A stretch of DNA of 64,000 bases, taken from Hawksworthiomyces lignivorus (lineage: Eukaryota > Ascomycota > Sordariomycetes > Ophiostomatales > Ophiostomataceae). Position 1 is the stretch's first letter. Every line of letters starts with the position of its first letter. Made by a program: the position numbers and the translations under genes. Shown in pieces: positions 11,885 to 37,858 of the stretch. The DNA lies in NCBI GenBank assembly GCA_002917075.1, contig NTMA01000084.1, positions 1-64,000 on the forward strand, read 5' to 3'. The notes under the pieces are model-generated. The model was given only the letters and a program-made list of their open reading frames with translations, was not told the origin of the DNA and did not search any database.

Positions 11885-13897
11885 TTATGCCCTCTGCGCG
11901 TTCAGACGCCGCGGCCGTACGCGAATTCTGGGCTTATTCGGGCCGCCGGCGCCGCCAGCTCCTCCACCATTGCCACCATTGCCGCCGTCTCCTCCTCCAC
12001 CTCCGCCGTCTCCGTCACCGCCGCCATCATTTCCTCCTCCGCCTCCCCCACCACCGTCACCACCTCCGTCTCCCCCGTCACCACCTCCTCCGTCTCCTCC
12101 TCCACCACCACCACCATCTCCTCCTCCTCCACCTCTTCCTCCTCCTCCGCCTCCTCCACCTCCACCGTCACCACCGCCGCCTCCATCTCCACCTCCATCA
12201 TTATTATTGTTGTTGCCGCCGTCGTCGTTGTCGTCCACTGCACCCTGCAGCAGGTTGTAGGCGCGCTCGGGCATGGGCTCGGGCGGCATGTTGGCGCCGG
12301 TGAAGAAGGCGCGGGCGATAGAGGGCGGCAGGGCGCCGCCGGGGGGGGCGAAGCCGTCGCGGACGCGGGCCTCGCAGATGGCCATGAGCTGCTCGACGGA
12401 GGGGCGGTGGGCGGGGTCGTAGGCGAGGCAGCGCATGAGGGTGTGGCGCAGGCGGGCCTCGAGGCGGGCAGCGTAGGGCGCGTAGTGCAGGGGCCAGCCG
12501 TGGGTGAGGACGACCTGGGGCGCGTTGGCGGGCAGGGCGGGGTCGGCGCCGGCGGGGTCGCGCAGCACGGGCAGGCTGGCGACGGCGGGGATGCGCTGGG
12601 CAAAGGGCGGCTCCTCGGCCTGGCGCTGCAGCACGGCGCACAGCAGCACTTGGCCGGCCTGCCAGACGTTGGTCTTGTCGCCGTAGCGCCCTGCGATGGC
12701 AGCGGGCGTCTGGCCGCGATCGCGCGGCACGGCGTGGGGGTGGTCGGCGACCAGCTCCCACTCGGCGGTCCACTGCTCGGGCGCCATGTAGCCCGGCTTG
12801 CCGCGGCAGCGCAGCTCCCAGAGGGCGCGGGCGTCGCGCAGGACGTGGCGGTCGACGCGGCGGGCGAGGCCAAAGTCGACGAGCTTGAGCCGCGGCACGC
12901 GGCTGTGCTCAGGCTCGGTGCTGAGCCCGTTGGGCCGGTCGGGCGGGAACGCGCAGACGAGCACGTTGCTGGGGTCGAGGTCAAAGTGCACGAGGTGGTA
13001 GGGGCGGAGGCCGCGGGGCCGGCCGTTGTTGTTGTTGTTGTTGTTGGCATTGGGTACAACCGCCGGCGGCAGCTCCTCGGCCGCCCACCCGCGGGGCTGT
13101 TGGCTGGGCGGGTACTTGAGCGCCATGCAGCCCTTGGCCAGGCAGTAGAGCATACGCCACAGCGTCTCGTCGGGCCAGTCGAGCCCCTGCGCCGCCGCCG
13201 TGGCGATCCAGTGGCCCAGCGGGCCGTGCGGCAGGTACTCGAGCAGCAGGACGCCGTCGGAACCGTCGACGCGGCTGGCGCCCCGCCGCAGCGGCGTCGG
13301 CGGCGCCTGCGGCAGCACGCCGTGCACGGCTTCGGAGTCGTAGCCGCCGGCCAGGCGGCGCAGCTCGGCGATGGCGCGCAGCTGCACCACGTGCGGGGCG
13401 CCGCGCAGCAGCCGCAGAAAGCGCTTCTCGGCCGCCAGGCCGCGCTCGCTCTCGGGGCCCAGCGGCAGCTTGACCGCCACCTTGTGGAACCGGCCCTGCG
13501 CCGTCTGCGCCTCGAACAGCACCACCAGGCCCATGCCGCCCGCCGCCAGCACCCGCCGGAACCGCACCCCGAGGTAGAACAGGCCGCCTGCCGCCCGGTT
13601 CACCGCTGTCCGCGCCCGCTTGCGCCGCGCCGGCGTCTCCAGGTCGCGGATCGACCGCCGCTCCGCCGCCTGGAACCCGGGTCCCGCGTGCTGCCGCTGC
13701 GGGTCAGTCGGCGCCGAGAAGCCGTGGTGCAGGTCGTTGCGGTGCGCCACCGGCGGGTGCGGCAGCGCGTCCAGGTGCCCGTTGTCAAAGTGGTGGTTCG
13801 CCAGCTGGTGGCCGGTGCGGTAGGCCCCGCACAGGGCGTTGATGCGCTTCTGGTAGCGCCGCAGCGACAGCCGGTGCCGCAGGCCGTGCTCATGCAT
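11885..13897 (-). CDS. Protein kinase with variant catalytic loop and Gly/Asp-rich tail
   Basis: 670 residues from the ATG at 13895-13897. The frame continues upstream, but that part is not coding-like. Kinase motifs run in order: glycine loop AAGGMGLV, VAVKL (lysine), a catalytic loop HFDLDPSN where typical kinases have HRDLKPxN, VDFGLARR (intact DFG) and GYMAPEQW (APE-equivalent). The catalytic Asp, loop Asn and DFG Asp are retained, so activity is plausible, but the loop Arg and Lys are replaced. A poly-Asn microsatellite interrupts the region before the catalytic loop. The last 100 or so residues are almost pure Gly/Asp and end in a basic tail. It is convergent with the ArgRS gene. The substrate is unknown. 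Confidence 0.8.
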   Translation of the reverse strand: MHEHGLRHRLSLRRYQKRINALCGAYRTGHQLANHHFDNGHLDALPHPPVAHRNDLHHGFSAPTDPQRQHAGPGFQAAERRSIRDLETPARRKRARTAVNRAAGGLFYLGVRFRRVLAAGGMGLVVLFEAQTAQGRFHKVAVKLPLGPESERGLAAEKRFLRLLRGAPHVVQLRAIAELRRLAGGYDSEAVHGVLPQAPPTPLRRGASRVDGSDGVLLLEYLPHGPLGHWIATAAAQGLDWPDETLWRMLYCLAKGCMALKYPPSQQPRGWAAEELPPAVVPNANNNNNNNGRPRGLRPYHLVHFDLDPSNVLVCAFPPDRPNGLSTEPEHSRVPRLKLVDFGLARRVDRHVLRDARALWELRCRGKPGYMAPEQWTAEWELVADHPHAVPRDRGQTPAAIAGRYGDKTNVWQAGQVLLCAVLQRQAEEPPFAQRIPAVASLPVLRDPAGADPALPANAPQVVLTHGWPLHYAPYAARLEARLRHTLMRCLAYDPAHRPSVEQLMAICEARVRDGFAPPGGALPPSIARAFFTGANMPPEPMPERAYNLLQGAVDDNDDGGNNNNNDGGGDGGGGGDGGGGGGGGGGRGGGGGDGGGGGGGDGGGGDGGDGGGDGGGGGGGGNDGGGDGDGGGGGGDGGNGGNGGGAGGAGGPNKPRIRVRPRRLNAQRA
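11940..12220 (-). repeat. Coding Gly/Asp low-complexity tract
   Basis: Degenerate GGN/GAN triplets encode a Gly-Gly-Asp-type tail of the kinase. The + strand reads as CCN-rich, creating spurious Pro-rich frames. The tract is likely unstable in length. Confidence 0.8.
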
Positions 13898-14603
13898 CGC
13901 GAACCGGCGAGGTCCAGCGGCGGGCAAGAAGACGCGTGGAAGACAAAAATCAAAGACGACAAGACAAGAGCCTATTCTTGGCAAACTAGAGAGGCACAGA
14001 AGAAGCGCAGGCAAATAGGTAGAACATGATCCTGGACAGGAAGACATACATGGCACCGGATTCCACTTGCGGAAAGCCGTGCAGTCTATATATGCTCCGC
14101 TGCACCATCGTCGAGATGTGCCCCTATTTGGTAAAGGGATGGGACTCTGTAGAAGAGGAACATTCAAAAAATTACAATTTCCTTGATGAACAATAGGTCC
14201 AAGAAACAAGGCAAAGAGACACAGCCTCTAGAGGATGTCTATTTTAAATACGTGATGCCTCAATTGAACAATGGACCGCCCATATGAAAGCGACAACAAT
14301 ATTAAGAGAATAGCCTACGTTTCTTTCATCTATTTGTGTAGATCCGACAAAAGAGTCGAAGAGAGCGCCTTTGTCTCAAATATTAAAACAATACGAGGCA
14401 CTCTTCTTGGTGCGTATTTCTGTTTCATTGTATTGTCGATTATGTATAGATCCTTTCGTGAGAGGCTCGTACTTCGCGCCGTATTGGGGTTGCCTTTGCC
14501 ATACTCTCATCTCCCCCCGGCCTGGGTCGGTTTTTAAAGCGATAGTTTTACAGATGGTCCGGATTTTAACACGGCAGTTGAGCAGTCTGTATTTGTTGTG
14601 ACT
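13898..14603. other. Intergenic gap upstream of the kinase, 3' of the hydrolase
   Basis: A TATATA at 14087-14092, about 190 bp upstream of the kinase ATG, could be its TATA element. Nothing else is recognised. Confidence 0.4.
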
Positions 14604-16694: not shown

Positions 16695-19600
16695 ATGCGT
16701 CTCTTGGAACGCAGCGATGACGGCGAGATCTTCCTGACAGAGAACTTTCCTGATGGCAAAATCCCACAATATGCAATACTTTCGCACACATGGGGCGAAG
16801 AAGAGGTCCTCTTCAATGATCTGCTAAATGGGACGGGCAAGAACAAGCTTGGGCACGAAAAGATCCGGTTTTGCGGAGAACAGGCTCGGCGAAATGGCTT
16901 GAGATACTTTTGGGTGGACACATGTTGTATCGACAAGACCAGCAGCGCAGAGCTTCAGGAAACCATCAGCTGCATGTTTCGCTTTTACAAGAACGCAGAG
17001 AAATGCTAGTATGTTCGTTTCTATTTATTGTTCCTCGGTTTATACGCACGTTCGATAGAGCTGACAAACGACCAGTGTCTATCTCGCTGATGTGTCAAAG
17101 CTTCCCTCTGATTCCGACGGTGAATCTAATCCGTCGTGCTGGAAGCCGGCTTTTCGGAAGAGTAGATGGTTCACTCGCGGCTGGACTCTTCAAGAGCTTA
17201 TTGCTCCAACCTCGGTCGAATTCTTTTCCAAAGAAGGTGTAAAACTGGGCAACAAGAAGTCTCTAGAGGAAAGTATCTACGAGATTACAGGAATACCTCT
17301 CAGTGTCCTTCGAGGCGGGCCCCTATCTGATTTTAGCATCTCTCAGCGAATGGCGTGGATGAAGGATCGCGACACCGCACGCAAGGAAGACAAAGCATAT
17401 TCGCTGCTCGGCATTTTCGACGTTCACATGCCCCTTCTCTACGGCGAAGGGGAAGAGAAGGCGTTCAAGCGTCTCCAGAAAGAGATCAGCGAAGGTTCGT
17501 GGACCAATAACTATATTTTGCATTCATAATAGCTAACAATATAGAACAGCATGCCCAGACACTTCCAGCGCAGTGTTCAAAATCGGCTTGGAATTGCCTG
17601 GGATCACCCCGGTTCAGCACTTCGTTGCAAGAGAGGAAGAGCTTACCGAGCTACACGAGGTACTTGGCAAGGGTATTAACCGCCGCACCGCTGTGATTCA
17701 TGGCCTTGGCGGTATGGGAAAGACACAATTGGCTCTGCAATATGTGGTGCGCCACCGGGACGACTATTCAGCTGTGTTCTGGTTCAATGCTCGAGATTAG
17801 ACCACGTTGAAGCAAGAATTCGTGCGAGCAGCCAAACGCATCTCGCACAGGTTCCCATCTGTTGTCTATATCAAGAATGCGGTAGAGAGTCGTGATCTTG
17901 ACCAGACGGTTTGCGCTGTTAAGCAATGGTTTAATGTTCCTGAAAATAGCCGTTGGCTTATTGTTTACGATAATTACGACAACCTCCTATTAGAAGGAAA
18001 TAATGAAGAGAGGAATAAAATTGAGCTGGATACAGACGGAAGTGACGTCTTGGAAGGCTACGATATACGCAAGTTTCTGCCAGACGCTTATCACGGTGCT
18101 GTCCTTATCACGACACGGTCGTCCAGAATCCAATTCGCACATCGCATTCCCCTCAGGAAACTAAACCACATCGAAGAGGGCCTTGAGATTCTGTCTCGTA
18201 CGTCAGGCCGGCAAAACTTAAGCAAAGGTAAATCACAAAATTATATGAGTATAGTACGGGGCTAACTATCGTCTATAGATGCCACTGCTGTCGAGCTTGC
18301 ACAGATCTTGGATGGACTACCGCTTGCACTTTCTACTGCTGGCATGTATTTATATAATATGCCGATAACATATTCAGAATATATTCACATGTACAACAAG
18401 TCGTGGCAGAGTTTACTGGAGACAGCTCCATCGCTTGACTCGTACGACAAAACCCTCTACTCGACGTGGGATATCTCATATGCTCAGGTTAAGTCACGAA
18501 ATATGACATCGGCAATGTTGCTACAGCTGTGGGCGTACTTTGATCATGAAGACCTTTGGTTTGAGCTACTCAAAGAAGGTCAGTCAAATGGTCCACCGTG
18601 GTTTCAGAAAATGGCAAGCGATAAAATCAGTTTTAATGAATCAGTACGTGTGTTGTGTGATTATGGGCTGGTCGAGGCCGATAAGTCATCGACAAAATAT
18701 ACAACGGAATCGCCTGGTTATAGCATACATAGTTGCGTACACGCGTGGACGATACACGCGTTAAATAATATCAAGAACGACGACTTGGCACGGCTAGCGA
18801 TAAGGTGTATAAGTTCAAAAATACCAGCAAATACTGAAAGAGAGTATTGGGTTATGCAGCAGCGGCTTGTACAACATAGTGCTTATTGCCTAACGATGAT
18901 TACGAATGGTATATCAGTTGATGAAGGAGAAGAGTGGACTCTGCGGAAGCTGGGTAATCTCTTTCGACATCAGGGCCGGTTCGACGAGGCCGAGGCCATG
19001 TATGATCGCGCTCTACACTGCAGTGAGAAGACGTTTGGAGTAGACCATATGGAGACGATTTATGTTGTTGGTTGCTTAGCTATCCTATATGAGATCCAAG
19101 GCCGGTTCGACGAGGCTGAGGCCATGTACGATCGCACTCTGCAGGGCCGAGAGAAAGCGCTTGGGCGAAACCATCCAGATACGCTTATAACTCTCAACAA
19201 CTTGGGCAGCCTCTATCACAGTCAAGGTCGGCTCGACAAGGCTGAGTCTATGTACGATCGCGCTCTACAGGGCCAGGAGAAATCATTTGGGCCAGACCAT
19301 CCAGGTACGCTTAGTACTATCAACAACTTAGGTAGCCTCTATCAGAGTCAAGGTCGGCTCGACGAGGCTGAGTCTATGTACAATCGCGCTCTACAGGGCC
19401 AGGAGAAATCGCTTGGGCCAGACCATACAGATACGCTTATAACTCTCAACAACTTAGGCATCCTCTATAAAGGCCAAGGCCGGCTCGACGAGGCTGAGTC
19501 TATGTACGATCGCGCTCTACAGGGCCAGGAGAAATCGCTTGGGCCAGACCATACAGATACGCTTAGGACTATCAACAACTTAGGCAACCTCTATAAAGGC

Positions 19601-20767
19601 CAAGGCCGGCTCGACGAGGCTGAGTCTATGTACGATCGCGCTCTACAGGGCCAGGAGAAATCGCTTGGGCCAGACCATACAGAGACGCTTGGGACTATCA
19701 ACAACTTAGGCAACCTCTATAAAGACCAAGGTCGGCTCGACGAGGCCGAGTCTATGTACGATCGCGCTCTACAGGGCCAGGAGAAATCGCTTGGGCCAGA
19801 CCATCCAGATACGCTTAGTACTATCAACAACTTAGGCAACCTCTATAAAGGTCAAGGCCGGCTCGACAAGGCTGAGTCTATGTACGATCGCACTCTACAG
19901 GGTAAGGAGAAATCGCTTGGGCCAGACCATGCAGATACGCTTAGGACTATCAACAACTTGGGCAACCTTTATTACAGTCAAGGTCGGCTCGACGAGGCTG
20001 AGTCTATGTACGATCGCGTTCTACAAGGCCAGGAGAAATCGTTTGGGCCAGGCCATACAGATACGCTCAGGACTATCAACAACTTGGGCACTCTCTATTA
20101 CAGTCAAGGTCGGCTCGACAAGGCTGAGTCTATGTACGATCGCGCTCTACAGGGCCAGGAGAAATCGCTTGGGCCAGACCATACAGATACGCTCAGGACT
20201 ATCAACAACTTGGGCACTCTCTATTACAGTCAAGGTCGGCTCGACAAGGCTGAGTCTATGTACGATCGCGCTCTACAAGGCCAGGAGAAATCGCTTGGGC
20301 CAGACCATACAGATACGCTCAGGACTATCAACAACTTGGGCACTCTCTATTACAGTCAAGGTCGGCTCGACAAGGCTGAGTCTATGTACGATCGCGCTCT
20401 ACAAGGCCAGGAGAAATCGCTTGGGCCAGACCATACAGATACGCTCAGGACTATCAACAACTTGGGCACTCTCTATTACAGTCAAGGTCGGCTCGACAAG
20501 GCTGAGTCTATGTACGATCGCGCTCTACAGGGCATGGAGAAATCGCTTGGGCCAGGCCATCCAGAGACGCTCAAGACTATCAGCAACTTGGGCAACCTTT
20601 ATAGAACGCAAGGCCGGCTCAACGAGGCTGTGGCCACATACGACCGCGCTCTTCACGGTCAAATGAATTTGCTCGGGCCAGGCCATCCAGATACGCTTAA
20701 GACTGCCAATAACTTGGGCAGCCTCTATCAGATCCAAGGCTGGCTCATGTACGATCGCGTGCTATAG
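16695..20767 (+). pseudogene. HET-NB-ARC-TPR NLR-like gene with an in-frame TAG
   Basis: Four exons, 16695-17008, 17076-17494, 17550-18227 and 18279-20767, join in frame to 1300 codons. Introns are 51-67 bp and three show a CTAAC or GCTGAC branch. HET domain: YAILSHTWG, FWVDTCCIDK, FTRGWTLQEL. NB-ARC: P-loop GLGGMGKT (about residues 296-303), Walker B WLIVYDN, ITTRSSR, and GLPLAL. Then about 14 TPR units of 42 residues. A single TAG at 17798-17800 (codon 328) interrupts the nucleotide-binding domain just after the P-loop; everything downstream remains open and conserved. CAG to TAG by C-to-T change would fit RIP (repeat-induced point mutation) or ordinary mutation; sequencing error or readthrough are alternatives. 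Related intact proteins act in heterokaryon incompatibility and cell death. Confidence 0.8.
18949..20764 (+). repeat. TPR array, 126-bp units
   Basis: About 14 full units plus a truncated last one encode 42-residue kinesin-light-chain-type TPRs (pattern NLGxLYxxQGRLDEAESMYDRAL...). Units starting near 19975, 20101, 20227, 20353 and 20479 have their shared CAGTCAAGG word exactly 126 bp apart and are nearly identical in DNA. This indicates recent duplication or homogenisation; the first two and last two units are diverged. Confidence 0.95.
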
Positions 20768-25223: not shown

Positions 25224-27008
25224 ATGGCGGGGAGAATAGGGATCTTGGGTCTCGTAGACTCTATCAAGGACACTATTAGCATTATCATCTCTCTGAAAAA
25301 TTGTATAGAGGCAGCGCAGAATCAGGTTCAGGACGAGCGAGACCTGCGGCTGAGGTTTGAGGCTGACTCCCTCGCCCTCAAGGAGCTCCTGGTCGCGCTC
25401 AAGAACGTGGAGACAGTCGCGGCGCAGAATGTCTCTGAAGAGGAAGAAAAGCTCTTTTCTGACATGGCCGCCCATCTCGACGACTTGCGCTCTCGTCTCA
25501 TGACACGGATGGCCAAGATCAGCAGTCCGTCTGGCTCAGACGCCTCCTCGGCGGACGCTTCCGGCAAGTTGTTACGCATCACTTCGCGCGTGGCGTGGGT
25601 GCTGTGGCGCCGGCAGGACCTCGAGAAGCTCGAAGAGTCGTTGCGAAACTGGATTGGGAGGCTTGAAATTATCATCTCGGTCGTCCAGAGCCGCAGCCTC
25701 GGCTTTGACGATGTTTCCAAAATGGCGGCGGCCATGGCCGCTCTGCCAGGTCTGCAGACTTTCGATCGAATCAGCCTCAAGATCAAAGATTACGGCCGTC
25801 TTGCTGCTCAGCAAGTCGACGAGGGCACGTTGCTAAAGCCATTCCAAACTATCGAGTGTCTCGACCGCCGGTCTCGCCGCTACCCCGCGAACTACCGCTC
25901 TCCTGTTGTGATGGGCTCCGGCGGCGGCAGCGGGCAGGCAGCACAGACCCCGCAGCCTGTCGTGGTCGAATATACGGCACACGCCTACACCGAGAACGAC
26001 TCTGCCGAGACGGTCCACTACATCGGCGACGCCACCCGCGACCTAGCCAAGATGCTGTTTCACAGCGATCCTAATCGCACCGGAATCTTGCGGTGCATCG
26101 GATACACGCACGACGAAGCACAGCGATCATTTGGTCTGCTGTACGAGCTGCCTCCCGACGCCATACAGGCACCCGCAGATGCGGCAGGCGGCTCCGGCGC
26201 ACCATGGACAGTCCAGTCGCTGCGAGACTTGTACCGGCGCCAGCCAGCTTTTTCGCTGACGGAACGCGTGACGCTGTGCTGCGACGTGGCCAAAGCGGTG
26301 CTGTACGTGCACCTCCTTGGGTGGGTGCACAAGAGCGTGCGGCCGGACAACATTCTATTCTTCTCCAAACCGGAAAGTTCAGCCATGCAACCGGGCTCGT
26401 CAGCGGAGGCTGTGCAAGGCAGCGGCAGCGGCAGCGGCAGTAGTAGTAGCAGAGGCAGCGGCAGTGGCGGTAGCAGGAAAAGCGGAAGCGGAAGCGCAAG
26501 CGCAAGCGGGAGGAAGGTTGAGTTCCAAACGGCGCTCCCGCGATGCTATCTCGCTGGGTTCGAGTACGCGCGCAGCACCAAGGTGGCATCGGACCGCCGC
26601 AGCGACGGCGACTGGCAGCACAACGTGTATCGGCACCCTCGGCGCCAGGGCGTGGCGAGCAACAGCGAGTACACCATGGCCTATGACATCTACTCGCTCG
26701 GCGTCGTCTGCCTCGAGGTGGGCATGTGGGGCCGTGACCGAGGCACTGTGCCCCCCTACGGTGATCGGACACGGTTCAAGACCATGGGCCCAGATGCCGT
26801 CAAGGCCGAGCTCATACGGATCCTAGACGGCCGCCCCGCAGAAGGTAGCGAAGGCGCTGGCGGGAGTCGGTTGGCAGAGTTCATGGGCGACAAGTTTGCC
26901 GAAGTCGTCCGGTACTGCCTGACCATCGGTACCGGGGACGACGTATCGAGCGTCCGGTACATTCAAGAGGTTTGGCTCAAGTTGGACGAGATCCGGTGCG
27001 CGTTATAG
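25224..27008 (+). CDS. Four-helix-bundle (HeLo-like) pseudokinase, MLKL-like architecture
   Basis: 594 residues, no intron. The N-terminal 190 residues are predicted helical and begin with a hydrophobic glycine-containing segment (IGILGLVDSIKDTIS), as in fungal HeLo/HET-S-N-like membrane-acting domains. The C-terminal half is a kinase fold with all three catalytic signatures lost: the beta3 lysine region reads VVVEYTA, the catalytic loop reads HKSVRPDN (Asp to Ser), and DFG is GFE (CYLAGFEYAR). A Ser/Gly repeat (about residues 395-430) is inserted between the last two. The ending resembles a kinase C-lobe (YDIYSLGVVCLEVG). MLKL, the necroptosis executioner, has the same order of a four-helix bundle and a pseudokinase, and its bundle is regarded as related to HeLo domains. 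It is tail-to-tail (105 bp) with a kinase-ankyrin gene. Function is inferred. Confidence 0.8.
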   Translation: MAGRIGILGLVDSIKDTISIIISLKNCIEAAQNQVQDERDLRLRFEADSLALKELLVALKNVETVAAQNVSEEEEKLFSDMAAHLDDLRSRLMTRMAKISSPSGSDASSADASGKLLRITSRVAWVLWRRQDLEKLEESLRNWIGRLEIIISVVQSRSLGFDDVSKMAAAMAALPGLQTFDRISLKIKDYGRLAAQQVDEGTLLKPFQTIECLDRRSRRYPANYRSPVVMGSGGGSGQAAQTPQPVVVEYTAHAYTENDSAETVHYIGDATRDLAKMLFHSDPNRTGILRCIGYTHDEAQRSFGLLYELPPDAIQAPADAAGGSGAPWTVQSLRDLYRRQPAFSLTERVTLCCDVAKAVLYVHLLGWVHKSVRPDNILFFSKPESSAMQPGSSAEAVQGSGSGSGSSSSRGSGSGGSRKSGSGSASASGRKVEFQTALPRCYLAGFEYARSTKVASDRRSDGDWQHNVYRHPRRQGVASNSEYTMAYDIYSLGVVCLEVGMWGRDRGTVPPYGDRTRFKTMGPDAVKAELIRILDGRPAEGSEGAGGSRLAEFMGDKFAEVVRYCLTIGTGDDVSSVRYIQEVWLKLDEIRCAL

Positions 27009-27113
27009 ATTTGGGGTCTCAAACCCAGGTCGACTACCTATGTCAATTAAACAAAGCAAGAATCTTTTCATTTGTTCCCAGTATGCCATCGCCTCTGCTT
27101 CAAGCATTGTAGC

Positions 27114-30100
27114 TCAGGTTTGCTCCTCTCCATTGTGCGGCTCGTCCAATCTCGCCTTGAAAATGCGTTTCCTCCCTTTAACCACGGCCCCTACATTGTC
27201 CATAACGACATCGATTCTCTCCTGCTCGTCCGCCTCCAACTTGTCAATGGCAGATCTCCACTGTTGGCGGCTCCTATCCTCGTCGTTTTCCCCCACTCTA
27301 GTGTGGCGCTTGAGCAACTGAATCACATCGATATGGTCCAGCGCACGCGCAATGCACAGTGGTGTTAGTTCTGCCTTCGTCTCGAGATCGACATCCGCAC
27401 CCATCTCAATCAAATATTGCGCCACATTCGCATCTCCAGCCCTGACAGCTTCATGGAGCGGCGTACAGCCCGCGACATCGCCCTTGTTCACGAGCCCTGT
27501 CAGGATCTCGGCCGGGAGGAGCTGCAGGTGGGCTCGGACCTCCGCATCTGTGCTCCTGGTCATGCTGTGCACAAAGGTTCGCCCGTGCACATCCACGACG
27601 CCGGCAAGGGTGGGCAGTAAGCTCTGCTTGATGACCTCGCCGAAGACGTAGCTGAAAATTTCCCTGTCGCCCGGTTCGCGGGCTGCCCGGTGAAGGATGC
27701 TTTCGCGCAGCACGCTCTGGCGGGTCAGGGAGCATCCGCGTGCCACAAGATGTCTGCAGAACTCCGCGCCTCGCTCCCGTCCTCGCACGCCAACGGCGTG
27801 CATCAGCGGCGTCAAGCCCTGAACGTCGGGCTGGTCGATATCACGGTCGGCGAGGTTCTCCAGGCAGAATTCTAGGTACTCAAGTTCGCATGCCTTCATC
27901 GCCGCGGCATGGTGAAGCGGGGTCATGAACTCGACGTCTTGGATCTCAAGATTGGCGTGGAAGTCCTGGACGAGCGCCCGGATGACGGGCAGGCAGCCTG
28001 GCCTCGCCATGCAGTGGTGGAGAGCCGTTTTCCCCAGGGCGTCCTGCGCATCGAAGTCGGTAAGGCCGTGGCTCGCAAGGAGCCGGAGCATGCAGAGTCT
28101 TGTCTCTGTCACCGTCTCGAGGGGCACATCCGAAAAGTCGAAGCCGACTCTGGCGCGGGGGTACTTATACGTGGGTCTCGAGATGGCCGTGCACGCGAGC
28201 TGCAGTGGTGTCTGTCGAAGTTCGTCGTCCGTCCTGAGATTGACATCGGCGCCGTGATGCAGGAGCACGGCGAGGTACAGCGGCCGCAAATTACACGCAG
28301 TGTGGATGGGGGCAAGGCGTATATCGACGCCTGCAGAAGAGAATGTCTGCCACACGTCCTGAGAACAGCCGTACTCGAGCAGGGCCTGGAGGCAGGAGAT
28401 TTTGTCCCCAAGAATTGAAGCGAAAATGGGAGTCCCGTCAAGCTCGGGTTCGGGATCGACTTCATCGAAGAAGGAAAAACGACCGTCTAAGAGCTCCTTT
28501 AAAGACGGACAGTCTCTCGTTTCATCGGGCAAGAAAGCCCACTCCTGCTCTAGAGCATCTCGAAGATAGACCAGCAGTGATATCGCTGCTCTTCCAGTCA
28601 TATTCGCCAAGTATCTTATCACTCGAGCACTTAACATGTGCTTGTGCTCAGCTCCGGCATTGAGAAGAGCCAGTACTGTCTGTTTAGAGTTGTGGATGGC
28701 GGCTATTGTAAGCGGCGTCATGTTCTCAGCGTTGAACAGGTTGACATCAACTTTATACTCGTTGACCAAGAGCATAATAATCTCGGTTCGACCGAGCTCT
28801 GCAGCAATATGGATAAGTGCGTCTCCATTTGTGAACCGGACGTCCAGCACGCCTTTGTTTATTTCCACGACTTCGCGAAGATTACCAGCATCATCCCCCA
28901 CCACGGCTCTGAGAGCTTCTTGTGCCGGAACTGAAGGGGGCGGATCCGTTTCATTAATCCAAGAAGAGCAGTCACCAGTAAAGACGTATTCTTCGAATGC
29001 ACTTACGCCTTCTACTAACTCATCCAGAAGGTCATGTGAATCCAGCACGTGAAAACAAAGTTCTTCGAGCTGTGTGAGAAAGTCCTCTAGTCCACGCATC
29101 GGAGTCAAGAGGATTTCTAGTGCCCATCTATTAAGTTGTCGTATCGTAGGCGCGTTTTCGTTGTTGGCGAAGTGATCAGGCCCCAGTTTTACGCACAGTG
29201 CGCGGGCAGCTTGCGATCCTAACTGCGCCGCTTCAAGATAATAATCTAGGAACCTAGGGACGTCATTTGCGGCTAGTGATGCTAGGGCGAGCAGGCAGGG
29301 AATCTTCTCGTCGCTGGAGGTGCTGTGGCGGAGTCGGTCTTCGTACTCTTCTTTCAGAAAGCCCTGCAGCGGCTCCGGAATAGCCTCGAGGTTGTCTGGC
29401 GAGAGTGACTAGGTACGCAGTGCCGCCAGAATGTCAGCGCTGTGTTTGACCAGGCAGCAAATACTGCTAGCTCACTGCTAAAATACTCACCATGCCTTCG
29501 CTTGGTCCCTTGCGAATACGCGGCAGATAGTGAAAGCGCCAATTGAGTGGTGACCGCTCTGGAGATTTCCAGTAAAAGGAACTGGAAGTATCATATGTTA
29601 GCTCTCCACTGCGTTTCACATACTTTGACCTATATATATATTAACATACGTTATTGCCCATATCTCCAGTTCATCCAAGCGCTCAAGCACGTAATCCCAA
29701 GTGGCCGAACCAAAAACATCACGAATGTTTCTGCCAGCCTTTCTACAGTCATTTGTGAGCATGGAAAGCAGTAATAAAATACAGGGCGAGGAGCCTACTC
29801 ATTGCTAAGAAACATGGAGAGATTATCTAGCAGACGGTGTTGGTCCCGTTTTTGTGGCTCGGCGTGGACGAACAGAGTGACAGCCAAAGCCATCGCGAAC
29901 GGACGGCAGTCGAGAACCTTTGTCATGCGGATACCGAAGTTTGGCTCAGGATGTGGTTTCGTCGTGAGAAAACCCATTTCCAGCTTTTTCATCAGTATAA
30001 ATCACAACAGACGTGTTAGAGAACTTTACATACATCACCGATTTTCGTAAGATGCCGGTAGGCAAATAGCCTCTGCTTGAAGCTGTCAGAATCAGTAGCC

Positions 30101-31137
30101 GGTGGCAGAGACCTCATGTAATCGACGGCCTCTTGTTTTCCTATGTGTGCCCGTTGCTTGCTTAGCCTCTCTTTGATAAGAAAGCCCATGCCCTTCCAGT
30201 TCATTTTGCCTAGGCGCAGGTTCTCCCTCTGCTCTTCGCTCAACCGACCGTATGGCGCCGATCCAAATAAAATATAATAACCAAGGAGGCCGAACGAGAA
30301 GTAGTCTCTAAACTTGGATTGGTAGTGCAAGTGATTATGGTCGTAGACTTCAGGAGCGTTCCAGTATTCTGTACCAGGCAAATCATATCGCATGCCTATT
30401 TCTTGTGCATCTGCCGGTCGGCTGCCACCGAAGTCAGATAGTTTTGCGATAAGCTTTCCGCTACTGTGGTCCTCGAAGATTAAGATGTTAGCTGGTTTGA
30501 TGTCCCCGTGCACGATTCCAACGGCGTGAACTGCGGATAAAGCGTTTGCCACGTCGCACCATAGAGACACCTTTGTCTCTGTAGAAATATCAGCGCCTTT
30601 TCTCATTTCATGCTCGTAAAACGACTCGAGCGTGGGGTGGTCCGGATGTGCTTCTTGGAGTATCATAATGGGCTTGAAAAATGGGCCACTCGTGTTATTG
30701 TTGGGCAAGTTAGTGACCTCGAGGAACGAAACCCCGAGAAGCTTAACGATATTCGGGTTACTGCGAAGAAGATCATTTGAGAGGAGGCGTAATTCGAGAG
30801 AGAACACGGCCAGCTGTTGCATCCAGTCGTCTGCAAACGGACCGAGTTCTGAGCCGCCCCGAGGCAGTGGAATATCAATGAATTTAACTGCTAGCGACAA
30901 GTTTCCGAATACCTTGGGACACAAGCCACGAAACACCGTCATGAGCGCTCCAGAGCCCAGTTTCGTATCGGTAATCTGGAGTGCTGCAAAAGGGACCACG
31001 GTGATGTTGGCATCCGTCACGTACTCGATTAATGAGACGTAATCAATGAATGGATAGGCGCTTGCACTGCTCCTCGTGGCATAGTCATGGAATCCCGACG
31101 AGGAGCGCCCGCTGTAGATTGATAGATTTGACGCCAT
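27114..31137 (-). CDS. Kinase-ankyrin repeat fusion protein, five exons
   Basis: Exons reading leftward: 31137-30034, 29983-29799, 29742-29650, 29581-29491 and 29408-27114, giving 1255 residues. All four introns (50-82 bp) have GT...AG ends, and the joins keep one frame. N-terminal kinase: loop LGSGALMTVF, AVKFID (lysine), HGDIKPAN (catalytic Asp, Lys and Asn present; Gly replaces the Arg of HRD, so non-RD), LSDFGGSR and NAPEV. All catalytic residues are intact, so activity is predicted. A middle helical segment (about 370-590) has solenoid-like features, and ankyrin repeats fill about 590-1190 (TPLHHAAA, TPLHEAV and similar). RIPK4/ANKK1 share the kinase-ankyrin order. An upstream ATG at 31239 is possible. 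The neighbouring HeLo-like pseudokinase is a candidate substrate or partner (inference). Confidence 0.82.
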
Positions 31138-32377: not shown

Positions 32378-35312
32378 TCATGGGCAGCTGTCGCCCGCCT
32401 GCCGCCGCGTTACGTTGGCCGGCGCCTGGTAGTAGCGTATCCGGAAGGGGTCGGACTCGACGACGTCGTAGTCGCTGGGCTGCGTGGCGTCGCCAAAGAT
32501 GTGCAGCGCGTGGAACACGAGCTTGTACAGGCCCGGCGGCGCGTAGGTGCCGTCGGCCAGCGCGCCGTCCCACGTCGTGTTGACCGTGTCGCGCGACATC
32601 CACTGCATGGGGAACGACTTGATGGCGCCCAGCGTGTGGTAGCCGAGCACGTCCTGGATCGAGTGGCCGCCGCCGGGGGCGCCGCCGCCGCCGGCGCTGC
32701 TGCTGCTGCTGCACAGCTTAATGGGCACCAGGTCCGCGCGCACCGCGGGGCTGCCCATGGCGAAGTTGAGGTTGAGCTGGACGAGCGTGGTGCGGTTGTT
32801 GTAGCGGGGCACCTCGGGCGGGGCGGTCTCGTTGGTGCCGCCGGGTGGCGGGGGCGACGCGCCGGTGGTGGTGTTGCGGTCGGGCGGCGTGGGCAGCAGG
32901 AACAGCGTGTTGGCGGCGACGCGCGTGGCGTTGGGCTCCTTGGCGTTGGACAGGTAGGTGCCGACGCTGTCGAGCACGGTCAGCGAGCGCAGGCTGCCGG
33001 CGACGCCCAGGTAGGGCAGCGACAGCGCGGAGCCGTCGGAGCCGTTGATGGCAATGTAGCCCGAGTACACAGGGATGCGGGCGGTGTCGAGGCCCGCGGG
33101 CGGCGCGGCCGACACGGACACGATGCGGCGCTGGCCCGCGGGGATCGTGATGGTCGTGCCGTCGCCGCCGCTGCCGCCGCTGCTGCTAAAGTTGAGGCTG
33201 CCGTAGCGGCCGACCACCTGCAGCTCAGCGGGGAAGCGCGCCGGCGTGATGGCCGTCTCGGTCAGGAACGTGTACGCCGTGGCGGCGCCGACGTGCGACA
33301 GCGTGTAGATGACCGACGTGCGGCCCTTGTTGGTGATGGTAAAGTTGCGCACGGCCGCGTGGTGGTCCGAGTCGTTGAACGACAGGCTGCTGGCGCTCAG
33401 CAGCGTCGTCGCGTACGCCGCGTCGTACGCCTGCAGCAGCCCGGCCCCCTGCTGCGCCACCGGCGCCAGGAACGGCAGGCTGCGCACGCCGTCGTGGTAC
33501 AGGTTGGGCTTGGCCGTCGACGCCAGCACCGTCTCCAGCAGCTTGGGGTCGCGCGTGCCGCGCGCCTCCATGACCAGCGCGAAGATGCCCGCCACCATCG
33601 GGCACGCCATCGACGTGCCCGACAGCACCGCGTACGACCCCAGCGCCCGCGGGAACGTCGACAGGATCTGCCCGCCCGGCGCCGCCAGCTGCGGCTTGAC
33701 GTCCACCTCGAACGTCGGGCCCCAGCTGCTGTACACGCTCATGAACCCGCCCGACTGCTTGTTGTCGCCGCTGACCAGCGTCTTGGGCGACGTCACCGGG
33801 TCCGTCATCGCCACCACCACCCGCTCGCCCCGCGCCAGCGCCGCCACCCACCGCGCCCCCTGCTCCCCCGTCACCGTCGCCATGCCCTCGATGCCCTCCA
33901 CCGCCTCCACGTCCACCGCCACCGTCCCCGGCGCGTTGTTGTAGATGATCATGTACTTGGCCCCGCGCCGCCGCGCGTTCTGCGCCTTGATCGTGAAGAG
34001 GCACGTCCCCCGCCGCACCAGCACAATGTACCCCGACAGGTCCGTGCCGTTGCTGCCAAAGGGCGCGCAGCCGTCAGCCGTGTTGTTCGTGTTGTAGTCT
34101 GGCGCCCACAGCGGCAGCGTCACCCCCGTCCAGTTGGCCGGGCTGCCCGCCGTGTACCCAAACGACGTGTTGCTCGCCGCGTCGCCCGCCGTCGTGTACG
34201 TCGCGTTGGAGAAGAGCACCGGCGCCTGCGTGTTGTCCACCGACGCTACCGCCACCACCCGCTTGCCGTCCGCCGCCGTCGACGCGTAGAACAGGCCCGT
34301 CGTGCCGTCGTTGCCCGCCGACACCGTGCACGGCACCCCGTTCTCCACGATCCGCGACACCACCGTCGACCACGCCTGCTCCGACCACCCCGACGACCCG
34401 CCGATCGACGACGTGATAATGTCCGCCCCGGCCTCGTACGCCCGGTTGAACGCCGCGATCAGCACGTCGTCGTTGACGTTGCCCTGGCACCCAAACACCC
34501 GGAACATACCCAGCTCCACCCCGGGTGCCGCCCCCACCACGCTGAACGGATTGTTGCCCTGCGCTGCGATGATCCCGGACACGTGCGTGCCGTGCCCGTT
34601 GCAGTCCATCGGCGGCCGGCTCGGGTCCGGCTGCGGCTTGTTCGACCCGTTGTACGCGTCGCCCACCAGGTCGTACCCGAAGCTCACCAGGCACCCCGGC
34701 CCGAAGCACCCGCCCAGCGCCGGGTGCTCGTAGTCTACGCCCGTGTCCACCACCCCGATGCGGATGCCCTTGCCCGTGATGCCCTTCTCGCGCAGCTGGC
34801 TGACCTGCGTCATCAGGTGCGTCGAGAACGTGTCCTCCGCCGCCCGCTGCTGCGCCGCGTCCGTCCGGTTCAGGTTGCCCGCCCAGTGCACCGTGTGCTC
34901 CGGGATGTGGTACGACCGGATCGGCCACATGCGCTTCACCGCCGGCAGCGCCGTCAGCTGCTCCGTCGAGTCCGCCGACGACTGCTCGTTGTGGAACTGG
35001 ATCGACGCGCCGCGGAACAGCTTGAACGTCAGGTCCATCTTCTTGGACGCATTGGCCGCGATCACCTTGTAAAAGTCATCCGTGTCCTGGCAGAAATACG
35101 TGTTAGTTTTCTCCGCTGCTCTTCTTTTGCTTTGCCCTATGTGTGTCAGCACGTACATGGCCGTCCTCAAACTCGACAATGTAGCCACCCGGCACAATGG
35201 TCGCCACCTGGGTCTTTGTCTGCTGCAGGATTCGGCTGCCCGGACCGCCGACGGCCGCCGAGACACCGGCAGCCAGCAAGGGCAGCGACAGCACAAGCTG
35301 AAGGCCGCGCAT
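32378..35312 (-). CDS. Secreted subtilisin-like serine protease (S8A) with PA domain
   Basis: Exons 35312-35157 and 35086-32378 (intron 35087-35156, GTACGT...TGCCAG) give 954 residues. The signal peptide is MRGLQLVLSLPLLAAGVSA, followed by an I9-type propeptide (GGYIVEFEDGH...). The catalytic triad is clear: Asp in VVDTGVDYEHP, His in NGHGTHVSGI, Ser in LSGTSMACP; the oxyanion Asn is in SAGND. A protease-associated domain is inserted before the Ser block (RRGTCLFTIKAQNARRRGAKY). A C-terminal Fn3-like/DUF1034 region and several N-glycosylation sequons follow. This organisation matches fungal minor extracellular (vpr-type) proteases that degrade environmental or host protein. The unspliced reading frame extends upstream but lacks the signal peptide and is not real. 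Confidence 0.95.
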
Positions 35313-37858
35313 TTTTCTGTCTTTTTCTTATTAAAGGGAACAACAGAGAATAACAAGAAACGCCAATGAGGCTCGGCGAAATACACTAGAATGCTTTGAA
35401 TAATCTGTCTCGTTTCTATGACCGTCCCATCTCACACCTCTCAGTAGGATCGAGGGATGAGAGTGCCAAGAAAGAAACAGAGAAGCGAGAGACGAAAAGG
35501 CATATGGAGCCTCGGCCAGGAACCCCCCATTACGGACAAATCTCTCCCCATATATATGGCGGGAAGACAGGTGTCGATAGCAAGAACTGTATTGCGAATG
35601 TATTATCCCTCATCATAGCCTCCTCTTTGTTTCTTCTCCTCCTTCTGGAATTATAGATTGGGCCTCCTTCATCAGTACTGAGCTTTCGAATTTAACCAAA
35701 GACGTCGTGGAAGAAGTGTTCCTCAACGGCACAACATCTCCCCCCCTTTGTCCCTTTTGCCCTTTTAGGTAATGTATATGTCTTAGCAACTTATAAGAAT
35801 TAATTGGAGCTGGCCATAATGTTGGATCTTTTGGACCCTGCCAGCCCGCTCCGCTTGTACAAAGAGGTAGCATCGGGAGCCCCAAGGCTCAGCTTGCATT
35901 ATACTTGGAGGGGAAGAGAACATATTACGAGGTTGAGCTCTTATTATAATGCTCTTTTGTTAAGAGTCGGTGCGGCTAATTTTTACAATGGGGTTAAAGT
36001 GGGAACAAACAACCTGCAAACGCCAGCTTTCCTCTTCTATTATGCAGAATAACAAGTGGAAGAGAAGAAAAGATGTAATACCTGGTGGTGAGCGAAGAGG
36101 AAAAGTGGTCTTTCACCACTCCGATGCCCAGGACTTCTCTGAAGCTAGAGACAGAATGGAACTACTCTGACTTATGTTGGAGAAACTGAGAGAAATTGAA
36201 GACGTTGTCGCGTCTCAGAAGTGCGTTGGACTCATGCTCGTGTGATAAGAGAGCGAGGTCTAGATTCGGGAAGAGGTGGGAGAGGCTGAGGGACTTACTT
36301 CGCCATCGAAAACATAAATGAGGCTGTTGGTTGGATCTTCGAAATATCGGAGAGCTTCACTCTTCATTTGTAGCGTAAGATACTTCCAAAAAGAAAAGTC
36401 AACGAAGAAGATTAGAAAAAGAAGAGAGGAGACGTGAGAGCTGTCGTTGTTGGGCGCAGGAATGAATGCGATTGGCAAGCTCTTCCCGAATCATCGTGTT
36501 GGCTCCAACAAAATAGCTTGGGAAATATCTGTTTCCCGCTTCTATCTTTTTTGCCTTCCATTTGTTCCTTAGTCTGTCGTGCGGCGGCATGACTTAGCCT
36601 TTCTGATCCTAAGCGTATGGCAGCCGTGTGAACTGGGACTTCAACCCGCTCACTTGAAGGATGCTTCCTCTGAGATGGAGCGCTTCTGTGTGACCAACGT
36701 ACACAATCCCAATGGCAAATTAGAAGCAATAAAACAGCACTGTACACTAATTGTTCCAACAGACATGGCCGCTATCTATCCCATAGTTGGTCTATCACGC
36801 CTTTTCTTGTGTGTCTGGACAATGCGGCCCAGCATCTCAGTGAGGCGATTGTTCGCAGTTTTCCGTGTCTACCACAAGAGCTACTAAGCAGAGCGTGGCT
36901 TTTGCTTCAAGTATTGGTAATCAGGCAACAAATATTTATGAGCCGCAATGAAGAGTCCCAAGTATCTGCTCGCGTGCAGCTTCTCGATTTCGGTATGTTA
37001 ATTCCCGAATGTCCGCTTTCCACCATTTACGGAACAACATGCTTTATAATATAGACCGGATAAAAAGTAGTACGAGGAAAAGGGACAGGGTGAGGTGGAA
37101 AAAAAGAGATCCGGTGGCCGCATGGACGTCTTTCTCTATGACTATCAACTTACCCGGCTGAATCTTCCGGCATAGCATCCGTTAACCTGCTGTTAAAAAT
37201 TCACCAGGGCAGCCTTCTCTCTGCAGCTCTTGGTGTAAATCAGAAACTGCCTAACAGCCGCTTAAGCACTATCCAAGAGCTGCACAAAACAAGGATGCGA
37301 TACCTCTCTAAAGCATCACGAACAATGTCAGTGGCACAGAATGATATCAAGGATGTGGTAAAGACAGGCAATCCCTCAATTATTCTAGAGGCAATTAGGA
37401 TGCGAATAACAATTGATAAAAAAAAAAAAGAAAAGAAAAAGAAAGAAAGTCGATTCTAATTGAACATTCTGAGATGTATTTCGTATGGGCTACTGAGCGG
37501 TGTTTGGAGTAGAACTGGGACTGCGCCTGTAAGACTATCCCAAAGCATGACCGACAAATTCGACGTGACATTCAAAATCTTATCTGCAGCGTTCCTATTC
37601 GCTTTGAGCGGCGTCTAACGGCCAAGGCAGCATCTGTTAGCCCTGTCAGCCTCATCAACATCGTAGATTGGCGCTATGCAGCTTCTAGGCGCAACTTACT
37701 TCGATCGTTTTACATGTGCATACCACTTCCTTCTCACCGAAATTTATCATCTTCTATCTACACATGATGCGCATATGAAGGCAATTGCAGCTGTGCAGGA
37801 TCTTATGTTTGTGTAAAATAAAGTCAAAGTCACGATAGCAAGAGGAAGCACTGGAAAC
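35313..37858. other. Intergenic gap with possible decayed gene
   Basis: The gap is AT-rich with purine-rich stretches. Scattered + strand open segments with coding-like composition occur at about 36.8-37.8 kb (listed separately). Nothing else is recognised. Confidence 0.5.
36809..37764 (+). pseudogene. Coding-like + strand fragments, possible decayed gene
   Basis: Several open segments follow one another on the + strand in changing frames: about 36809-36995 (ending LLDF before a GTATGT), 37064-37140, 37142-37458 (about 105 codons without a stop, no early ATG) and 37513-37764. Their amino-acid make-up is less biased than random AT-rich sequence would give. They match no family I know. Alternatives are a real multi-exon gene I could not join, or chance. 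Confidence 0.2.

Follow-up and report, generated by a model that had tools for sequence, protein, structure and literature searches.

Does a pseudokinase gene that lies tail to tail with a kinase gene in the fungus Hawksworthiomyces lignivorus form a signalling unit with its neighbour, and could that unit work like MLKL with its kinase? Fungal necroptosis-like death is known via NLRs and amyloids, and the original prediction for this locus read the two genes as a necroptosis-like pair. We examined them within a window of 64,000 nucleotides (contig NTMA01000084.1, positions 1–64,000), to which all coordinates refer unless another locus is named.

Results

Two adjacent genes carry a dead and an intact kinase domain

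Gene 1 (25224–27008, plus strand) is a single, intronless open frame encoding 594 amino acids, with a putatively HeLo-related bundle ahead of a pseudokinase. Gene 2 (27114–31137, minus strand) encodes a kinase, a middle region and ankyrin repeats in a model of 1255 amino acids. The coordinates bear out the predicted tail-to-tail arrangement, in which the genes are separated by a gap of 105 bp (27009–27113).

The pseudokinase domain of gene 1 spans about residues 197–594 (25812–27005, plus strand). As had been predicted, this kinase fold is without the beta3 Lys, the catalytic Asp and DFG: the family alignment places a dead catalytic loop, HKSVRPDN, at residues 369–376 (26328–26351, plus strand) and GFE, in the context LAGFEYAR, at the DFG position (residues 445–447; 26556–26564, plus strand). 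A homolog search found 41 homologs of gene 1, 22 of which were aligned with it in alignment A1; row counts below refer either to the close (narrow) family of 23 rows or to the close and wider families pooled (42 rows). The catalytic Asp is replaced in all 23 close-family rows and absent from every one of the 41 family sequences, of 42 examined, where the motif could be located. GFE stands in place of DFG in 23/23 close rows and 40/42 pooled rows, the remaining two having GWE and GYD. The beta3 column holds Met, Ile or Thr throughout the close family (23/23), and 14 of 17 wider relatives retain the Lys. Conservation also marks two candidate phospho-switch serines in the pseudo-activation loop (26589–26603, plus strand): S456, nine residues past GFE, is present in 23/23 close rows and 41/42 pooled rows, and S460 in 22/23 and 24/42, respectively. 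A Ser/Gly-rich insertion (residues 385–434; 26376–26525) lies between the catalytic loop and GFE, and at the corresponding point several lichen relatives in alignment A1 carry an acidic insertion.

Gene 2 was modelled with five exons on the minus strand (31137–30034, 29983–29799, 29742–29650, 29581–29491 and 29408–27114), of which the acceptor of intron 1 and the stretch 29649–29409 are uncertain; relatives align over the kinase and ankyrin parts. Its kinase domain, at about residues 50–330 (30148–30990, minus strand; Pkinase, E = 4.9e-20), contains the AVK Lys (30883–30885), HGDIKPAN (30487–30510) and DFGG (30424–30435), all on the minus strand, and ankyrin repeats occupy 27291–28844 (minus strand; Ank_2, E = 8.2e-39, seven Pfam stretches), which agrees with the predicted intact-motif kinase with an ankyrin tail. 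Among 25 gene-2 relatives (P0043–P0052 and P0087–P0101, weaker matches omitted), HGDxK is kept in all 25 and DFG in 24, the other one having DFS. Two of these relatives, P0092 and P0100, were scanned whole and contain kinase and ankyrin models alone at E 0.01; the first and last exons of gene 2 gave no NACHT or NB-ARC model up to E 5. RIPK4 and ANKK1 have a similar layout, a kinase followed by ankyrin repeats. Gene 2 differs from them in the long middle region that separates its kinase from the repeats, and in that no RIPK appears among the best 60 of 241 matches of its kinase profile, within which IRE1 is the best solved match (2.4e-20).

Other features of the window are recorded here as observations in their own right. 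A subtilase with PA and fn3-like domains (Peptidase_S8, 1.3e-46; 32378–35431, minus strand) adjoins gene 2, and the long plus-strand frame lying over it is probably an artefact. A TPR array at 19097–20728 consists of 13 similar 126-bp units with 90% matches, a pattern seen in repeats that evolve in concert; just ahead of it, at 17065–18262, are small ORFs that look HET- and NB-ARC-like by eye and have no Pfam model at E 0.01. At 11888–14227, on the minus strand, a further ORF matches the kinase model weakly (Pkinase, 3.3e-6) and has a long tail rich in Gly and Asp.

The N-terminal bundle is probably related to HeLo domains through a wider family

AlphaFold2 and profile matches delimit an N-terminal helical bundle in gene 1 at residues 1–206 (25224–25841, plus strand), with predicted helices at residues 3–31, 36–66, 72–100, 112–172 and 178–195 (33-row alignment, mean pLDDT 77.3). 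The first helix (25230–25316, plus strand) is hydrophobic on the Kyte–Doolittle scale, with an 18-residue maximum of 1.63 at residue 5. It stands where HeLo/4HB domains have their membrane helix, and by analogy with HET-S, whose HeLo domain permeabilises liposomes (PMC12881547), it may have a membrane role.

A comparison of this bundle with those of HeLo proteins and MLKL had been proposed, and it came out in favour of a HeLo relationship in part. A helical bundle is indeed predicted, and the narrow-family profile matches the HET-s HeLo structure (E = 0.002, profile positions 53–138), but the predicted fold is not specific and the Pfam HeLo model stays under its cut-off on gene 1 (E = 0.1; 12.8 bits against 23.2). 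Among six close relatives scanned, P0003 alone matched Pfam HeLo at E 0.1 or lower, also under the cut-off (E = 0.0019); of four wider relatives scanned, P0026 and P0027 exceeded it (2e-11 and 7.9e-10) and P0031 and P0041 gave no match. The narrow family aligns with these wider bundle-pseudokinases over both domains (hhalign, E = 4.6e-56), and the HET-s HeLo domain is matched at 1.4e-7 by the 42-row profile that contains the wider family and at 3.4e-6 by the wider set alone. On this transitive profile evidence we regard gene 1 as probably HeLo-related, through the wider family more than directly, and not as a Pfam HeLo member.

Fungal HeLo/HELL effectors such as HET-S and HELLP resemble gene 1 in having a helical bundle, predicted in gene 1, with a hydrophobic N-terminal helix, in falling within the same profile superfamily, and in standing in a two-gene arrangement of effector and controller. 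An NLR controls the HET-S/HELLP effectors by amyloid templating (PMC12881547, PMC7889193), whereas the C-terminus of gene 1 is a pseudokinase and its neighbour is a kinase with no nucleotide-binding model. The available text of a 2025 review mentions fungal HELL-kinase/pseudokinase proteins (PMC12881547), which makes the layout of gene 1 a known one; that same text gives no family name, GFE or conserved kinase–ankyrin partner. A literature search that reached few subscription papers turned up no account of a fungal GFE mark or of the conserved kinase–ankyrin partner. Many distant relatives of gene 1 are fungal DUF7580 (PF24476) proteins that combine this model with a GFEYAR motif. Gene 1 itself does not reach the DUF7580 model, even at E 5, and the five DUF7580 matches of the H. 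lignivorus genome are other genes, with no GFEYAR seen in the four examined.

The two gene families are linked in distant fungal classes

Relatives of gene 1 and gene 2 were searched for separately, and two sequences were taken to share a contig when contig size and source were the same, irrespective of orientation. Seven of 23 gene-1 relatives (P0002–P0024), and likewise 7 of 25 gene-2 relatives, are by this measure on a shared contig: P0002/P0096 (contig of 8359), P0005/P0091 (44096), P0009/P0051 (24315; tags L6R38_006150/006149), P0012/P0049 (91418; Q9166_006323/006322), P0014/P0048 (28820; Q9218_003177/003178), P0016/P0092 (104435; Sphaerosporella) and P0019/P0100 (89316; LTR17_016119/016120). 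Locus tags are consecutive in all four pairs for which both are shown; the two pairs listed first and the Sphaerosporella pair show no tag pair. The named hosts are Xanthoria and Villophora (Teloschistaceae, Lecanoromycetes), Sphaerosporella (Pezizomycetes), Elasticomyces (Dothideomycetes) and cf. Caloplaca, which we take to belong to the Teloschistaceae, Lecanoromycetes; Teloschistaceae supply three of the five named pairs. One contig holds both genes in 5/5 named assemblies where both were found, and in a sixth species, Gallowayella weberi, P0017 and P0095 come from two assemblies with differing tag prefixes. Conservation of the pair in relatives, a check named with the original prediction, is thereby borne out.

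Over eight pairs, gene-1 and gene-2 distances correlate (r = 0.94, 0 of 20000 permutations; three gene-2 sequences partial), as is expected of any two vertically inherited genes, and the two trees disagree inside Teloschistaceae only. No same-contig partner was found for 16/23 gene-1 and 18/25 gene-2 relatives in a search where a number of contigs are short and every database cluster is represented by a single contig. Because long gene-2 contigs from Fusarium (5.4 and 5.5 Mb), Meristemomyces (307 kb) and Aspergillus (174 kb) have no gene-1 match, the pair may have been lost or broken in these lineages, and database clustering can hide partners. Gene 2 of the window is nearest to two proteins (47%) from Fusarium, a member of the Sordariomycetes, so the window pair may, judged from sequence, add a fourth class to the Lecanoromycetes, Pezizomycetes and Dothideomycetes. 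We conclude that gene 1 and gene 2 are a real, conserved two-gene unit and that their pairing goes beyond chance.

Related genes elsewhere in the H. lignivorus genome

Four queries found three genes of the gene-1 kind in this genome: the one in the window and one each on contigs C151 and C37. The C151 protein (P0130, 634 amino acids, motifs HKNIRPET and LVGFDIFR) matches gene 1 over pseudokinase stretches only (43% and 33%), reaches Pkinase at E 0.018 and has no HeLo model at E 1. Its gene lies in divergent orientation to kinase exons that contain HRDVKPGN and SDFG (Pkinase, 2.6e-42) and run toward a WD40 ORF (3.9e-57; L028:1433–6253, C151), and these exons and the WD40 ORF are likely one gene. 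The C37 gene (L029:3–1937, minus strand) combines HeLo (E = 1.6e-5) with a degenerate pseudokinase in one ORF, truncated where the contig ends. Two of the three genes have a kinase locus with repeats beside them, the third, on C37, being bounded on one side by the end of its contig. The C151 locus may parallel the window pair, with a different type of repeat. On contig C132 (L021:1078–2934), one ORF carries DUF7580 (E = 6.4e-21) and then a subtilase domain (1.7e-7), an arrangement reminiscent of the S8 proteases that control fungal gasdermins according to the available text of the review (PMC12881547).

The likeness to MLKL lies in the pseudokinase

The best solved matches of the 42-row profile include PERK (5.9e-8), MLKL pseudokinase chains (best 1.1e-7), the HET-s HeLo domain as given above, HRI (2e-7) and full-length MLKL 4btf (6.3e-7). 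MLKL HGKIRSSN...LAGFELRK aligns with fungal VHKSIRSDN...LAGFEYAR, free of gaps from GFE through the conserved Ser nine residues later. MLKL is not among the best 60 of 156 matches of the narrow-family profile, and IRAK4 ranks over it when 15 wider sequences are used alone. In full-length MLKL 6lk5 the bundle part scored 0.0 bits against the fungal profile, and the match between the fungal family and MLKL is therefore a pseudokinase match.

Animal MLKL, which acts with RIPK3, shares with gene 1 an N-terminal helical bundle (predicted in gene 1) ahead of a pseudokinase, and a kinase as genetic partner. In the available text of the cited papers, GFE is the DFG equivalent of MLKL orthologs (PMC6013482) and replaces DFG in MLKL (PMC5104457), as it does in gene 1, and the LAGFE flanks are common to both. 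MLKL differs in retaining the nucleotide-binding beta3 Lys, K230 (PMC6013482), which the close family of gene 1 lacks and most wider relatives keep; moreover, its bundle is hardly matched by the gene-1 family sequence, and its partner is RIPK3, whereas that of gene 1 is an adjacent ankyrin-bearing kinase nearest IRE1 among the best 60 of 241 matches. The idea of a necroptosis-like pair is supported in part: GFE and the conserved kinase partner are in keeping with it, and the poor bundle match, the missing nucleotide-binding Lys and a partner nearer IRE1 than RIPK among the matches listed are points of difference. The gene pair perhaps works like MLKL with its kinase; we do not identify gene 1 as MLKL.

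Discussion

Our best explanation, in which we have slightly better than even confidence, is that the gene 2 sensor-kinase and the gene 1 pseudokinase-effector belong together as a single conserved signalling unit. That the two kinase domains are under opposite constraint, and that their genes are linked, points to a sensor kinase paired with an effector that has its pseudokinase as the switch. Domains assigned by profile and prediction, opposite conservation, linkage in relatives and matching gene distances are what we observe; a sensor role, a direction of signalling, phosphorylation and membrane attack we infer, as follows. Gene 2 would act as sensor and give out the signal: its middle region and ankyrin repeats would detect or bind something, and its kinase would be turned on or off. 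The gene 1 pseudokinase, dead yet folded, would restrain the HeLo-related bundle and read the signal from gene 2, most likely via a phosphorylated pseudo-activation loop (S456 and S460) or else by direct binding. Once switched, the bundle would oligomerise, its N-terminal helix would attack the membrane and the cell would be killed or compartmentalised. HET-S and MLKL are the models from which bundle release is proposed to attack the membrane and from which S456 and S460 become switch candidates.

The same observations can be read in other ways. The pseudokinase could regulate the active kinase as an allosteric partner or serve it as a scaffold, as STRAD does with LKB1, and the bundle could be only an oligomerisation or docking module, in development or stress signalling with no killing. 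Linkage, matching distances and opposite conservation fit such a role equally well, and gene 1 is well conserved (42–51% identical in pairwise comparison across the three named classes), whereas many incompatibility effectors evolve fast. Against this, the N-terminal helix of gene 1 is hydrophobic and its bundle groups by profile with HeLo domains, that of HET-S being able to permeabilise liposomes (PMC12881547), and we consider a non-killing scaffold unlikely. It is also conceivable that gene 2 restrains gene 1 instead of activating it, keeping the effector silent until loss of the kinase or its inhibition by a parasite releases death in the manner of a guard or antidote. Selection would favour keeping a possible killer tightly linked to its controller, and the linkage and distance evidence, which is that of our best explanation, fits either sign of control; the MLKL model is one of positive control by phosphorylation (PMC6013482), and we regard restraint as improbable. 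That the genes are chance neighbours, or hitchhike within a gene-dense immune region, might be supposed of two domains common in fungi (142 kinase matches are listed for the H. lignivorus genome, exons counted), but the same-contig pairs of named fungi from three classes, together with the consecutive tags, largely refute this, leaving it a very slight probability.

A separate matter is ancestry, which does not bear on how the pair works. We give an even chance to convergence, in which fungi fused a HeLo bundle to a decaying kinase and GFE arose separately. The lack of MLKL among the best narrow-family matches listed above, the ranking of IRAK4 over MLKL with 15 wider sequences alone and of PERK over MLKL with all 42, the zero score of the 6lk5 bundle and the loss in the narrow family of the beta3 Lys that MLKL keeps all fit convergence; the prevalence of GFE among the fungal rows with MLKL-like flanks, the beta3 Lys of most wider relatives and the place of MLKL among the best matches of the pooled profile speak against it. 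A bolder proposal, which we advance tentatively and think rather doubtful, is that the GFE-bearing HeLo-pseudokinases of fungi and animal MLKL descend from one ancestral bundle-pseudokinase switch. The necroptosis relay would then not be an animal invention, and fungi would keep it as adjacent pairs in which an active kinase with interchangeable sensor repeats (ankyrin, perhaps WD40 at the second locus) drives the effector with neither NLR nor amyloid.

Linkage of the two families in distant fungal classes points to a two-part switch of long standing, which may serve cell death. Such a pair, in which a sensor-repeat kinase and a pseudokinase resembling MLKL have stayed side by side across several ascomycete classes, would amount to a simple two-gene necroptosis step, a version that is testable in yeast or Podospora, and with the GFE mark shared by a fungal family the origin of MLKL would become an answerable question.
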